Source of the DNA: a virus
Direction: 5' to 3' (one strand)
DNA: 40,352 nucleotides
Virus record (IMG/VR): IMGVR_UViG_3300042988_000485
Span: 1 to 40,352 of that record
Shown: piece after piece, positions 4,161 through 37,243 of the stretch
Layout of the letters: every line of letters begins with the position of its first letter
Position numbering within the stretch: position 1 is the first letter of the stretch
Notes under the pieces: model-generated
Databases searched by the model: none
What the model was told of the DNA's origin: nothing
Seen by the model: the letters and a program-made list of their open reading frames with translations, nothing else
Translations under genes and position numbers: made by a program

Positions 4161-4369
4161 TATTCACCCTCCGGATTCAGCTTGAGCCATTCGCGCGCGT
4201 CGGCCGGGCAGCCCTCTATTGATTCTGCTCCGGTCTCGAAGATCGGGCATTCTGTACAACTCCACCCATCTCCGTCGTCGCGGCCTAAACATGGAAGTCC
4301 GTGCCGATAAACGTCATGGTCCCACTTCGCCGTCCGCTCCATACGCTCGTGGTCTTTAGCGGTTGCCAT
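4160..4369 (-). CDS. Hypothetical Cys-containing protein, 69 aa
   Basis: The protein has four Cys and a His-rich first half (ERTAKWDHDVYRHGLPCLGR, then WSCTECPIF and EGCPADAREW), compatible with a small zinc-binding fold. The start at 4369 follows GAGGCGCGAGA and lies 14 nt inside the upstream gene. No family is recognised. Confidence 0.75.
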   Translation of the reverse strand: MATAKDHERMERTAKWDHDVYRHGLPCLGRDDGDGWSCTECPIFETGAESIEGCPADAREWLKLNPEGE

Positions 4370-5048
4370 TCTCGCGCCTCCTCTCTTGCTTCTTGATTTC
4401 AGCTCGAAGCATCGATTCTAGTTTTTTGTTTTGAGCGTCCCCTGCGGCGGCCCCTGCGGCGGCCCATGCGGCGTCCCCTGCGGCGTCCCCTGCGGCGGCC
4501 CCTGCGGCGGCCCATGCGGCGTCCCCTGCGGCGTCCCTTGCGGCGTCCCCTGCGGCGTCCCTTGCGGCGGCCCATGCGGCGGCCCCTGCGGCGGCCCATG
4601 CGGCGGCCCATGCGGCGTCCCCTGCGGCGGCCCATGCGGCGGCCCCTGCGGCGGCCCGTAATTTTTCGTTTCCGGTTTTTAGAAACTTTATTACGACTTC
4701 CGGAGCCTCCCATAGATGGATAACCGATAGCGCGCACCAGCGGGAGAACCGCGCAAATACCTTCGCGGCATTTATCACCGCGATGTATTTGCGGTTAGAC
4801 GCCGCAAGCTTGTCTTCTTTTTCGTCCACATCGCCCCATGACTCGACCATGTAGACCATCGGCCCGTGGTTATACTGTAGCGCATCGATGACGCGCCGCG
4901 AAGAATGCAAGCCGCACGAACATGCTTCGATCCCGCCTTTGATGTGATGCGTCTTTCCGACATCAACCTTCCGCCCGTCACCATTCGGCAATATAGGTTC
5001 CGATGCGAACCACCAACCCTGTATAGCGTTTTTCTTTTGTACCTTCAT
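4356..5048 (-). CDS. DUF7666-like phage protein with Ala-rich tetrapeptide repeat tail, 230 aa
   Basis: Residues 1-130 look like the phage family I know as DUF7666: WWFASEPILPNGDGRKVDVG, CSCGLHSS, ALQYNHGPMVYMVE, and a later LWEAPEVVIKFLKTGNEKLR. From about residue 132 the protein is 18 tandem tetrapeptides of the type [G/W/R][A/D]AA, followed by a charged coil (NKKLESMLRAEIKKQERRRE). The function is unknown; the tail should form a long Ala-rich helix with a regular stripe of Gly/Trp/Arg. The repeat DNA makes several other frames appear open, but only this one has a ribosome binding site and a conserved N-terminus. The family name is from memory. Confidence 0.8.
   Translation of the reverse strand: MKVQKKNAIQGWWFASEPILPNGDGRKVDVGKTHHIKGGIEACSCGLHSSRRVIDALQYNHGPMVYMVESWGDVDEKEDKLAASNRKYIAVINAAKVFARFSRWCALSVIHLWEAPEVVIKFLKTGNEKLRAAAGAAAWAAAGDAAWAAAWAAAGAAAWAAARDAAGDAARDAAGDAAWAAAGAAAGDAAGDAAWAAAGAAAGDAQNKKLESMLRAEIKKQERRRENGNR
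4438..4657. repeat. 12-bp tandem repeat, about 18 units
   Basis: The plus strand shows units such as CCTGCGGCGGCC, CATGCGGCGTCC and CTTGCGGCGTCC in head-to-tail order. The unit is a multiple of three, so copy-number change keeps the frame. It encodes the [G/W/R][A/D]AA tail of the DUF7666-like protein. Confidence 0.9.
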
Positions 5049-5185: not shown

Positions 5186-5337
5186 AAGTCGGCCTCTTTT
5201 ATGTACCCGTTATCAGTCGCCCATCTATCAAGCACTTCATTTTTGAATATGTCTTCGGGGTTATATTCGTATGCGATATATTCTTTTACCGCATCATCGT
5301 CAACATCAATACAGTCTTTAAGATTACGATATTTCAT
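5182..5337 (-). CDS. Small acidic protein, 51 aa
   Basis: The frame MKYRNLKDCIDVDDDAVKEY...DRWATDNGYIKEADL starts at 5337 behind GGGGGACAAGGC and overlaps both neighbours (ATGA at each end). It is acidic and predicted soluble. No family is recognised. Confidence 0.7.
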   Translation of the reverse strand: MKYRNLKDCIDVDDDAVKEYIAYEYNPEDIFKNEVLDRWATDNGYIKEADL

Positions 5338-5462
5338 GCCTTGTCCCCCAAGAGCTTCTTGAGAAGCGCGGTAAGCTCATCGACCGCCGCCCTGGTTTCT
5401 TGCGCGCCCTCGCGGATCTTCTTGAGCGCATCGCGTAACTGTTCAATGTTCGTCTTGTCCAT
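5334..5462 (-). CDS. Small coiled-coil protein, 42 aa
   Basis: The sequence MDKTNIEQLRDALKKIREGA...LTALLKKLLGDKA is one continuous heptad-like helix. The ATG at 5462 follows GGAGGACAAG at good spacing. It is the first coding sequence after the roughly 300-bp non-coding RNA-like segment. Function unknown. Confidence 0.75.
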   Translation of the reverse strand: MDKTNIEQLRDALKKIREGAQETRAAVDELTALLKKLLGDKA

Positions 5463-5490
5463 CTTGTCCTCCTTGTACCAATCGAAAACT

Positions 5491-5573
5491 TGGAAGCGGC
5501 ACGAATCGAACGTGCTCCGGTCGGGCTTCTGCCTAGGAGAGTTTCCGACCATGCGCCATCACACCGCGCCCCC
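5491..5573 (-). ncRNA. tRNA-like structure without a normal anticodon loop
   Basis: Read on the minus strand, a 7-bp acceptor stem (GGGGGCG with CGCUUCC, two G-U pairs) and a perfect T-arm (GCACG, loop UUCGAUU, CGUGC) can be drawn. A D-arm-like GUGU/GCAU and a central stem GUCGG/CCGAC also form. The total is 83 nt with discriminator A and no encoded CCA. The central loop is 20 nt instead of 7 and has no U33, so it is not a standard tRNA. It may be a decayed tRNA, a tRNA mimic, or part of a larger RNA. Confidence 0.4.
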
Positions 5574-5583
5574 ATGCCCCTGG

Positions 5584-5762
5584 ACTACGCGCCAGGGAAT
5601 CGCGCTTCGGTTAGCAAAAGGGGCGCGCCCTCACTTTTGCCGCGTAGCCGTCGCCCGCTGCCTTTTTCCACACCCTTACGGGCCGCAGGTCAACAAGGTC
5701 TTTACCCTGCGTTTACTGGTTAGCGCCGGGGGATGGTGGCTCCCCCTTGGGCCGTGCCCGCG
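5584..5762 (-). ncRNA. Candidate structured RNA upstream of the tRNA-like element
   Basis: This non-coding stretch between two small genes has several stable minus-strand stems. These include GGGGGA/UCCCCC (loop GCCACCA), CGCAGG/CCUGCG, CCC-GUAA-GGG with a GNRA tetraloop, GCAAAAG/CUUUUGC enclosing GGG/CCC, and CCCUGG/CCAGGG. The loop of the last one (CGCGUAG) is perfectly complementary to CUACGCG upstream, so a 7-bp pseudoknot is possible. No reading frame with a ribosome binding site occurs here. No promoter was seen directly in front, so it would be co-transcribed from P6258. Confidence 0.4.
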
Positions 5763-5924
5763 CTACGCCTTGATTATCTCGACTCCGAGCATCTTAGCCG
5801 CTCCGGCTCCGAGCTCTTCGCGCTCTTCCATCGAGAGCGATTTCAGCTCGTTCATCGAGACAGTGGGATATCCGGGCGAACCGAAATACGCCCTAATCGC
5901 CTGTACGTTCGTCATCTTTTCCAT
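5763..5924 (-). CDS. Small phage protein, 53 aa
   Basis: The sequence begins MEKMTNVQAIRAYFGSPGYP, continues VSMNELKSLSMEEREELGAG, and ends in AKMLGVEI. It resembles a small hypothetical family common in phages and prophages that opens with a NVQAIRxYF motif and ends with an ELGxxAAxxLGV helix. TAGGAGGATAGT before the ATG is a strong ribosome binding site. The function of the family is unknown. Confidence 0.8.
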   Translation of the reverse strand: MEKMTNVQAIRAYFGSPGYPTVSMNELKSLSMEEREELGAGAAKMLGVEIIKA

Positions 5925-5961
5925 ACTATCCTCCTAAGCCGACGCCTTATCGCGTCCGCGC

Positions 5962-6257: not shown

Positions 6258-6286
6258 ATACTAGCGCATCGGTTATCGGTTGTCAA
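6258..6286 (-). promoter_or_regulatory. Sigma70-like promoter P6258
   Basis: On the minus strand there are TTGACA (6286-6281), a 17-bp spacer and TAGTAT (6263-6258). The spacer contains a tandem AACCGAT AACCGAT directly behind the -35 box. The sequence shares CTATTTA..GTTGACAA and ACCG.GATGCG with P3962. The leader before the ATG at 6204 is about 45 nt and carries a small GCCC-AAAG-GGGC hairpin. Confidence 0.8.
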
Positions 6287-18279: not shown

Positions 18280-18918
18280 GCTGTTTCTCCCGTTGCGCAG
18301 CGCATCTATCTAGTATCTCGATACACGCCAATTGCTGCGGCGTGCATCTTCGCCAATCGCCTAATCCGTGCGCCTTGACCATCTTCCAGAATCTAATGGC
18401 AAGCCAAACGTCCGCACGGTCATAGCTGTCGAACTCTTCCCCTTTAACCTCGTAAGCGTTCCCGCCGTCTGATAGTTGACGCCCAGCAGGAACTACGATC
18501 CATTCAGGCCGCTCCCTGCCAGGGCTTAGCCATCCGCCTACCCATAATGAGTAGGCAATGGCTAGTTTTTTTCGTCAGGCTCTCCGACGCCGTCCATCAT
18601 GTTCTTGATATGCAGCGCCACTTCCGACATCATCCGAGCCATCCAGGTAGGGCCCCGGAGCGCTAGCCACTCCGCAGCGGTTGTAGCGTCCGGGTATCCT
18701 TCAATCTTCGTAACTCCCCGCCTGAAATATTCAGCCGAGTTGATCTTGATTTTTACCCGAGGATTTTTACCCGAACCGATATGGGTATACTCGTAATACT
18801 CAAGCTCGGCCTGTTCATCGATGGTCAAGAATTGGAGATAGAACTTGATAGGGCTTTCCGCCTTCGCGTTCCCATTCTCCTCTGGAATAAAAACCTCATT
18901 CGCATTCGTGTTAAGCAT
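18266..18918 (-). CDS. Tail assembly chaperone fusion (gpGT-like) made by -1 frameshift, 217 aa
   Basis: Translation of the 118-aa chaperone can slip back one base at A AAA AAC (18571-18565) just before its TAG and continue for 99 aa (LAIAYSLWVGGWLSPGRERP ... EILDRCAAQREK) to the TGA at 18266, inside the start of the tape measure gene. An 8-bp hairpin lies 8 nt downstream. This is the arrangement of lambda G/GT, where the fusion product loads onto the tape measure. The extension has no ribosome binding site of its own. The fusion length is from direct codon counting. Confidence 0.88.
18536..18571 (-). promoter_or_regulatory. Programmed -1 ribosomal frameshift site
   Basis: The slippery heptamer A AAA AAC (18571-18565) is in the correct zero frame (GAA AAA AAC TAG). 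Eight nt later a hairpin begins: GCCUACUC / GGGUAGGC with loop AUUAU (18556-18536). An outer AGCCAU/AUGGCU stem (18563-18558 with 18533-18528) can extend it. Confidence 0.9.
18562..18918 (-). CDS. Tail assembly chaperone (gpG-like), 118 aa
   Basis: This is the unshifted product: MLNTNANEVFIPEENGNAKA ... EVALHIKNMMDGVGEPDEKN. AGGAGGGTCTTT precedes the ATG. Position between the tail tube and the tape measure, and the slippery end of the gene, identify it by synteny with lambda gpG; the sequence itself is not diagnostic. Confidence 0.85.
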   Translation of the reverse strand: MLNTNANEVFIPEENGNAKAESPIKFYLQFLTIDEQAELEYYEYTHIGSGKNPRVKIKINSAEYFRRGVTKIEGYPDATTAAEWLALRGPTWMARMMSEVALHIKNMMDGVGEPDEKN

Positions 18919-30688: not shown

Positions 30689-30696
30689 AGTCTGCC

Positions 30697-30725
30697 ATCA
30701 TAAACGATTTTCAGTTATATGTCAA
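30697..30725 (-). promoter_or_regulatory. Sigma70-like promoter P30697 (terminase genes)
   Basis: On the minus strand there are TTGACA (30725-30720), a 17-bp spacer and TATGAT (30702-30697). The predicted start at about 30690 is adjacent to the ATG of the terminase small subunit. The AATCGTTTATGATGGC core is shared with P26162. Confidence 0.82.
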
Positions 30726-30732
30726 GCTATAG

Positions 30733-30828
30733 GAAAGCCCCTTACGGGGGCGGGTCGGCGGCGTGGTAGCCTATAGGCCGTGCCGCAAGGAGGGGGATGG
30801 TGGCATCCGAAGGGCGAATGCTTGACCC
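30733..30828 (-). ncRNA. Candidate short untranslated RNA / packaging-site region upstream of terminase
   Basis: The promoter at 30829-30857 would transcribe about 90 nt with no reading frame. That stretch carries a GGAUG-CCAC-CAUCC hairpin, a GCGGC/GCCGC stem, and a GCCCC-CGUAA-GGGGC hairpin followed by UUUCC (terminator-like, weak). Being directly upstream of terS, the DNA could alternatively hold the cos or pac site. It shares GGGGGATGGTGGC and CCCTTACGGG with the 5.7-kb non-coding region. Confidence 0.4.
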
Positions 30829-30857
30829 ATCTTATCCCTATTCCCTTTATCCGTCAA
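30829..30857 (-). promoter_or_regulatory. Sigma70-like promoter P30829
   Basis: On the minus strand there are TTGACG (30857-30852), a 17-bp spacer and TAAGAT (30834-30829). It begins 6 bp after the stop of the 58-aa gene and is followed by about 100 bp without a gene before P30697. Confidence 0.65.
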
Positions 30858-30862
30858 GCCGT

Positions 30863-31039
30863 TTAGCGAGATATGGCATTCTCCCCCCTATAGCCTGGAA
30901 ACTGAGCGTCTAGCTCGATCCTTGCGGCTGCTATGTCTAGCTCTTCTTGGCTTAACTGCCATTTGTAATCACCAAACAATGCCTCGATAGATACGCGCAT
31001 TGCTTCTCGAATGTCATCATTAAGCGATTCGCAGGTCAT
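30863..31039 (-). CDS. Small hypothetical protein, 58 aa
   Basis: MTCESLNDDIREAMRVSIEA ... LSQEELDIAAARIELDAQFP is an acidic helical protein. AAAAGGTGGGCAGATAA precedes the ATG at 31039. It is the last gene of the accessory block before the terminase promoter region. Not recognised. Confidence 0.7.
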   Translation of the reverse strand: MTCESLNDDIREAMRVSIEALFGDYKWQLSQEELDIAAARIELDAQFPGYRGENAISR

Positions 31040-35901: not shown

Positions 35902-36704
35902 TACGCCCCCCCTGCGCTGTCGCCGTTGTGATATACGTCTAGCCGCTCTTCGGCTACCGCTTCCCATTTTTCAAATATGCCCTTGACGTAATCCAAATCG
36001 GCCAGGGACGGTTCGAGGTCGCGCCCGCCCGGGTGCATGTCAGCGGTTATGTCCTTCTTGTCTTCCACGCTAAAAACGTCGCTTTTGTCGGGATACTTTA
36101 TCACGTAAAGTCCCGCAACCTTATTCCTCCACTCAAGCAGCGCACCGCGCGTCCCGTCTCCGCTCTTGGTTACTTCCCCGCGTGGAGCTGGAGGCGAGAG
36201 CTTGCCGTCAGATCCGGTTACGTCAGCCAATGCAGCGTCGGAAGCAGGAAGGCCAGAGACTACTGGCTCGCGGTATTTTGATCCGTCGAAGTTCCCAAGG
36301 TACACGTCAGCCGCTACGCCGAGCATCTTTAGAGCTACCGAGAGAGCGTCGGTCGTCGCCATTTTGTAGGCTTCATCTGAGTTATGCGGTCCGCTTGATT
36401 CTTTCGCTACCAACATCGAACCACCGATTCCGGGGATAGGCTCGCTCCATTCGTCAACAGTCTTGACGCGGACGGCTACCTCAGAGAATGCAAATACCTC
36501 CACGCCTTCGCCAGCCTCGCGCCATAGCCGCTTAATCTCATACGTCCATCCGATACCGCACGGGCCGAAGGCTTCGGTCATGGCCTGATAACGCCATTGC
36601 GGGTTTATGTCCGATTTACCCTTGAGCCTACCCGCCCCGATGGTTTTCAGGGCAGTCGTGGGCGGCTGTTTCAGCTTATCCCATAAGTCAAGATTGCCCA
36701 TCAT
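35901..36704 (-). CDS. Probable single-strand annealing protein (Rad52/Sak-like), 267 aa
   Basis: [56 protein letters not shown] and [20 protein letters not shown] follow a phage family usually placed with Rad52- or ERF-like annealing proteins (DEAxKxAxTDAL helix). The C-terminal 100 residues are a variable linker and a helix. The neighbouring SSB supports a recombination role. GGGGGAATG precedes a double ATG at 36704. Confidence 0.8.
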
Positions 36705-37243
36705 TCCCCCTTCTCCGACAAAAGGCCAAGATCGGCCGCCCTATGGCTTTTCTTCGCCTCGGGCAAAATAGCCTTAAGCGCCTTTTTTAATCCTGCGTCT
36801 GCATCGTCAACCTGTATCGTGACAATATGCGCGAGTAGTTGCCGTACGATCCGAGAATCAGCCTGGAATCTTGAGCCGCCGCACCACATCGGCATACAGG
36901 AAAAATCGAGGTCCGCGCCCCGGAGGTCCGCGCCCCGGAGGTCCGCGCGCTGGAGGTCCGCGTGCTGGAGGTCCGCGCGCTGGAGGTCCGCGCGCTGGAG
37001 GTCCGCGCCCCGGAGGTCCGCGCCCCGGAGGTCCGCGCCCCGGAGGTCCGCGCCCCGGAGGTCCGCGCCCCGGAGGTTCGCGCGCAGGAGGTCCGCGCGC
37101 TGGAGGTCCGCGCGCCGGAGGTTCGCGCGCAGGAGGTCCGCGCGCTGGAGGTCCGCGCGCTGGAGGTCCGCGCGCTCTCCGCCCTTGCCCTCTATCCATG
37201 CCTTATGCTTCTTCAGGATAGCCGCAAGCTCTTTCTTTTCCAC
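36701..37243 (-). CDS. Pentapeptide-repeat protein, 180 aa (GTG start)
   Basis: Residues about 24-118 are 18-19 tandem A(D/N)LXX repeats ([15 protein letters not shown]), which fold into a right-handed quadrilateral beta-helix. A Cys-containing cap ([14 protein letters not shown]) and a helical domain (res. 130-180) follow. Some such proteins mimic DNA and bind gyrase, but most phage members are of unknown role. GGGGGAGTAG precedes the GTG. Several false frames appear across the repeat because the 15-bp unit keeps them open. Confidence 0.85.
36908..37180. repeat. 15-bp tandem repeat of the pentapeptide-repeat gene
   Basis: Units such as GAGGTCCGCGCCCCG and GAGGTCCGCGCGCTG follow one another about 18 times. 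Exact neighbouring copies of GAGGTCCGCGCCCCG suggest recent expansion. The unit is a multiple of three, so copy number can change without frameshift. Confidence 0.9.

Follow-up and report, generated by a model that had tools for sequence, protein, structure and literature searches.

A tRNA-shaped element without an anticodon loop in a gene-free block of a viral operon, and comparable elements in other phages

In a virus whose genes almost all abut or overlap, what occupies a stretch of 300 bp that holds no gene? The window analysed here spans all 40,352 bases of a virus record from IMG/VR, linear by classification, with genes for terminase, portal, an SU10-type capsid protein, tape measure and replication, nearly all of them on the minus strand. 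A preliminary description had called the gap between the ORFs at 5763–5924 and 5334–5462 exceptional for such a genome. This is borne out: together with a gap of 283 bp at 18280–18562, it is one of the two longest in the window. Since the reader was hunting for oddities when the block was picked, some selection is built into this choice. A plus-strand ORF (5341–5937) runs antisense to both genes flanking the block. Elsewhere, the genes at 4356–5048 and 36701–37243 have stretches of 75–81% G+C in a genome of 52%; the protein encoded at 4356–5048 has a DUF7666 domain with DAAWAAAW/DAAGDAAW repeats.

Anatomy of the block and of its tRNA-shaped end

The features of the block and its surroundings, all on the minus strand, are as follows, in 5' to 3' order.

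6258–6286, minus: likely promoter of the operon that includes the block, TTGACA-17-TAGTAT, sigma-70-like
5763–5924, minus: upstream gene, 53 aa, an orphan
5463–5762, minus: gene-free block, flanked by two small minus-strand genes
5719–5767, minus: possible three-way junction from the stop codon of the 53-aa gene, loop GCCACCA (z = -2.6, p = 0.012, in a segment chosen post hoc)
5614–5640, minus: hairpin GCAAAAG...CUUUUGC, weakly terminator-like by eye and not listed on the minus strand by the terminator scan
5578–5597, minus: hairpin CCCUGG-CGCGUAGU-CCAGGG just 5' of the tRNA-like element, its loop complementary to 5648–5642
5491–5573, minus: tRNA-shaped element of 83 nt, with G1 at 5573 and an A73-like base at 5491
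5567–5573, minus: acceptor 5' strand GGGGGCG, making 7 of 7 pairs with 5498–5492, two of them G-U, including G3-U70
5551–5564, minus: D-like arm GUGUG-AUGG-CGCAU, 5 bp, with a 4-nt loop containing GG (constrained fold)
5519–5550, minus: 6-bp stem GGUCGG/CCGACC with a 20-nt loop, AAACUCUCCUAGGCAGAAGC (5544–5525), replacing the anticodon loop
5499–5515, minus: T-arm GCACG-UUCGAUU-CGUGC (5515–5499), the sole perfect T-arm in the window
5491–5498, minus: acceptor 3' strand CGCUUCC and discriminator A; CCA is not encoded
5334–5462, minus: downstream gene, 42 aa, starting 29 nt past the tRNA-like element, with a strong Shine-Dalgarno site, AAGGAGG

Read from G1, the element runs GGGGGCG / CG / GUGUG-AUGG-CGCAU / GGUCGG-AAACUCUCCUAGGCAGAAGC-CCGACC / GGA / GCACG-UUCGAUU-CGUGC / CGCUUCC / A, and its stem pairs are intact throughout (23 of 23). 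The 20-nt loop is without U33. G1 is preceded by a U, which is a common context for RNase P, and G3-U70 in combination with A73 is the identity signature of alanine tRNA. A tRNA-shaped 3' end with intact acceptor and T-arm, and a 20-nt loop in place of the anticodon loop, had been proposed from inspection; all of these parts are present in the sequence, and above chance. The Shine-Dalgarno site of the 42-aa gene begins 17 nt past A73. No promoter belonging to the element itself was found.

Chance, folding and the search for relatives

Dinucleotide shuffles put the expected number of perfect T-arms at 0.09 per 40 kb. When the upstream 110 nt were shuffled while the T-arm and acceptor 3' strand were kept fixed, a 7/7 acceptor together with a canonically spaced cloverleaf arose in 51 of 20,000 shuffles; a 7/7 acceptor partner by itself is cheap, appearing in 13% of shuffles. 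The joint chance of T-arm and cloverleaf is approximately 2e-4 per 40-kb window. The tRNA-like element is therefore very probably real, owing to the rarity of both the perfect T-arm and the cloverleaf. Folding of the isolated 83-mer gives a minimum-energy structure of -31.8 kcal/mol that does not contain the cloverleaf, compared with -31.1 kcal/mol for the structure that does, and thus the cloverleaf is supported by its pattern and not by energy.

The block as a whole folds with ordinary stability. The minus-strand RNA had been credited with at least five stable hairpins, but its fold does not rise above chance (z = +0.67, with 150 of 200 shuffles folding equally well or better); the plus strand gives z = +0.50, and no sliding window of 60 or 100 nt is unusual in fold stability. 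A hairpin with a GUAA tetraloop is present as described (CCC-GUAA-GGG, 5682–5673). Both strands of a suggested 7-bp loop-to-upstream pairing, CTACGCG (5648–5642) with CGCGTAG (5592–5586), are likewise present, but 1.3% of shuffles match it, which is mild evidence at best. On present evidence, the upstream 190 nt of the block require no special explanation. The proposal that the locus encodes a tRNA mimic, a decayed tRNA or a new structured RNA is thus supported for its last 83 nt, as tRNA-derived or tRNA-mimicking, and is not supported for a structured pseudoknot RNA of 300 nt.

The block shares GCCACCATCCCCC (5740–5728) with the intergenic region at 30.7 kb (30804–30792) on the same strand (p = 0.003 between regions), and a shorter CACCATCCCC is found in a third intergenic region, at 793–784. 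The second of these regions contains a separate, compact candidate small-RNA gene on the minus strand (30689–30863), just 5' of the terminase small subunit. It comprises a promoter (TTGACG-17-TAAGAT), a predicted 90-nt RNA that has the outer stem GGGUC/GACCC (z = -2.4) and an unpaired CCCCCUCCUU complementary to Shine-Dalgarno sites, and a terminator-like GCCCCCGUAAGGGGC-UUUCC, followed by a second promoter (TTGACA-17-TATGAT).

The element was assigned to no RNA class covered by the searches, in agreement with the earlier impression that no known phage RNA class fits. ARAGORN reports no tRNA or tmRNA gene in it and RF00005 gives no match even at E <= 10. Against Rfam, the block has no match at gathering thresholds and, at E <= 10, just an 11-bit piece of beta_tmRNA. 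With the tRNA family (RF00005) the element shares the 7-bp acceptor, the 5-bp T-arm with its UUCGAUU loop, the spacing of the arms and A73; it differs in having a 20-nt loop instead of the 7-nt anticodon loop, and a 4-nt D-loop, and its score lies below any threshold. It resembles the tRNA-like domain of tmRNA (RF00023, RF01850) in the absence of an anticodon loop, in G3-U70, in the T-arm and in the weak beta_tmRNA match, but that match is far under the 84-bit gathering score. A tmRNA was rejected, as the element has neither a tag reading frame nor the 5' tRNA-domain consensus GGAUUCGACGGG, in addition to the empty searches. A class II tRNA-Leu(UAG) reading of the 3' half was also rejected by eye: U33 is absent, the anticodon stem is unpaired and the variable arm is too tight.

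Searches of IMG/VR, phages and plasmids gave no homologue of the block, and neither flanking protein (53 aa and 42 aa) had one in the databases searched. The exact 25-mer of T-arm and acceptor is absent from 84,980 GTDB species genomes and from IMG/VR contigs, among which the host may be unsampled; matches of 15 and 14 nt in two genomes (G018 and G043) were set aside as chance. Searches for close relatives by way of the terminase, MCP, helicase loader, DUF7666 protein and the 53-aa and 126-aa neighbours found none. The best relatives were a 59%-identical terminase, in contigs otherwise unrelated, and one 32%-identical MCP; alignment of the terminase against bacterial genomes gave no relative.

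Anticodon-less tRNA-like elements in other phages

A scan of IMG/VR with the bare T-arm 17-mer returned 76 loci. Because the T-arm was the search key, its identity among these loci is no evidence of kinship. Approximately 21 of the 76 are tRNAs according to ARAGORN, and a few resemble tRNA 3' halves at attachment sites, four of which (L147, L192, L164 and L186) look like the 3' half of tRNA-Arg. Other loci are tRNA-like and are without an anticodon arm.

Two of the latter, L151 (minus strand, about 550–470) and L204 (1469–1549), are intergenic elements of metagenomic phages with a 25-nt middle hairpin. Both are laid out as acceptor, a conserved CUGGYGCUA...GC region, long hairpin, GAAG and T-arm, and both have the U(-1)/G(+1) context seen in the window. 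The two share homology (p = 0.001), their acceptors differ by compensatory changes, and neither matches Rfam. A ‘tmRNA*’ call by ARAGORN in L204 was dismissed as false, because the tag falls within a coding frame. Similarity of the window element to L151 and L204 beyond the T-arm gives p = 0.11 and 0.24, respectively. A shorter element of 46 nt, GGGTAG-GCGGTATGGCCGCG-(AT or GC)-T-arm-CTACCC, separates a stop codon from the following gene start in seven contigs (L159, L175, L201, L208, L194, L196 and L213); in L159 the gene that follows resembles a DNA polymerase processivity factor.

Arrays of acceptor and T-arm units are found in Streptococcus phages (L218, L219 and L220–L230; Javan623, Javan527, Str-PAP-1, Javan454, LYGO9 and others), where they are largely unannotated. 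Each unit of 43–48 nt consists of a 6–8-bp acceptor, an 8–15-nt linker with GG and a T-arm, and up to five T-arms occur in a gene-free block of up to ~900 bp ahead of the packaging (terminase/HNH) genes. In one unit, represented by six distinct sequences, all 13 of 13 pairs hold, three pairs having changed on both sides, and the covariation score was equalled in none of 500 shuffles. A second unit has two doubly compensated pairs among three sequences, a score that 51 of 500 shuffles reach and that is weak alone. The units in Javan527, Javan454, LYGO9 and others share with the window element the acceptor, the GG linker, the T-arm, the missing anticodon arm and the gene-free setting; in contrast, they are shorter, are without the middle stem and are arrayed before packaging genes, and a link of descent would be conjecture.

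The compensatory changes, together with the positions of these elements, argue that phages maintain tRNA-like RNAs that have no anticodon. We tentatively suggest that unrelated phage lineages maintain an unrecognised class of such RNAs (acceptor and T-arm, sometimes also a middle stem) in gene-free operon blocks, the covarying Streptococcus-phage arrays included, and that the window element may be a member. No description of phage RNAs of this kind was found in the literature searched, which lay mostly outside subscription papers.

A putative processing role and its alternatives

That the element has a maintained non-coding function is somewhat favoured. The leading proposal for that function, plausible but short of probable, is that an unannotated tRNA-like RNA recruits tRNA enzymes of the host, in the simplest case RNase P and RNase Z, so that a polycistronic transcript is processed. 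The RNA encoded by the final 83 nt would keep the features that host tRNA enzymes recognise, namely A73, a GG-bearing D-like arm and an acceptor stacked on a perfect T-arm, with the anticodon loop dispensed with. Transcription would take place within the operon that starts near 6258; host RNase P would then cut after a U, before G1 (5573), and RNase Z or exonucleases would trim past A73 (5491). As a result, the 53-aa and 42-aa messages would be separated and a small stable RNA released, in the manner of a tRNA-style punctuation mark. The shape itself is present in the DNA; transcription, cutting and any tail addition or charging we infer.

RNase P is known to cleave model hairpins consisting of acceptor stem, T-stem and T-loop alone, as well as several phage RNAs (PMC11143913); the predicted window RNA would contain the same three parts. 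Since the acceptor/T-arm stack is common to all of the elements described here and suffices for RNase P on model hairpins, processing or the release of a small RNA is the most economical role. In favour of this reading are the rare perfect T-arm and cloverleaf, the fully paired stems, the U(-1)/G(+1) context, the same-strand promoter and the comparable elements in other phages. Against it, no relatives of the element were found, homology to L151 and L204 is not demonstrable, the unconstrained fold slightly favours another structure, and the element has no promoter of its own.

The main rival, though an unlikely one, is a disabled tRNA gene. On this view the phage once had a tRNA here, extra bases entered its anticodon loop, its D-loop was shortened, and the sequence is now drifting. 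Phages often carry tRNA genes, and two indels would be enough, as the spacing is canonical apart from the 20-nt loop and the 4-nt D-loop. However, loss of function would have left no mismatch in any stem, there is neither a U33 nor an anticodon arm that could be recognised, the ARAGORN and RF00005 searches came back empty, and the exact 25-mer occurs in no GTDB species genome or IMG/VR contig. With a single sequence to judge by, the intact pairs and the comparable elements in other phages lead us to lean, no more than that, towards a maintained tRNA-like RNA. A pseudo-tRNA is known from Bacillus cereus: tRNA-Other is tRNA-like, has no role in translation and lies within a larger transcript, but its anticodon is that for Trp and it sits beside a genomic island, whereas the window element sits inside a phage operon (PMC3399842).

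Less likely still, a CCA-tailed form of the RNA may act as a tRNA decoy or alanine acceptor, occupying a host tRNA enzyme or absorbing a tRNA-cutting defence nuclease. The acceptor/T-arm geometry with G3-U70 and A73 would suit such a candidate role, and among known defence nucleases Cas12a3 attacks the acceptor end of tRNA and contacts the T-arm (PMC12851939); G3-U70 is, however, missing from both L151 and L204 and from the majority of the 46-nt elements. Charging by the host AlaRS is possible because the element bears the alanine signature, but is otherwise unsupported.

Chance resemblance in G+C-rich spacer DNA would agree with the lack of an energy signal and with a spacer G+C content of 63% versus 52%, which favours pairing, but the joint probability calculated above makes it very improbable. 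Capture of a host tRNA gene's 3' end in an attP site, as at the four tRNA-Arg-like loci, would account for the 3' part being the best preserved, but is at least as improbable, because the window has no match to a tyrosine or serine integrase (PF00589, PF00239; the record may be incomplete) and none of the 84,980 genomes, which may not sample the host, holds an exact copy, and the element retains the 5' acceptor partner that an attP copy would be without.

tRNA finders require an anticodon, and phage RNAs that rely on acceptor and T-arm alone are therefore missed in annotation. If such RNAs are real, phages would borrow host tRNA-processing or tRNA-binding enzymes for purposes beyond translation, and the elements would be candidates, open to test, for a role in punctuating mRNA or in diverting defences that cut tRNA.
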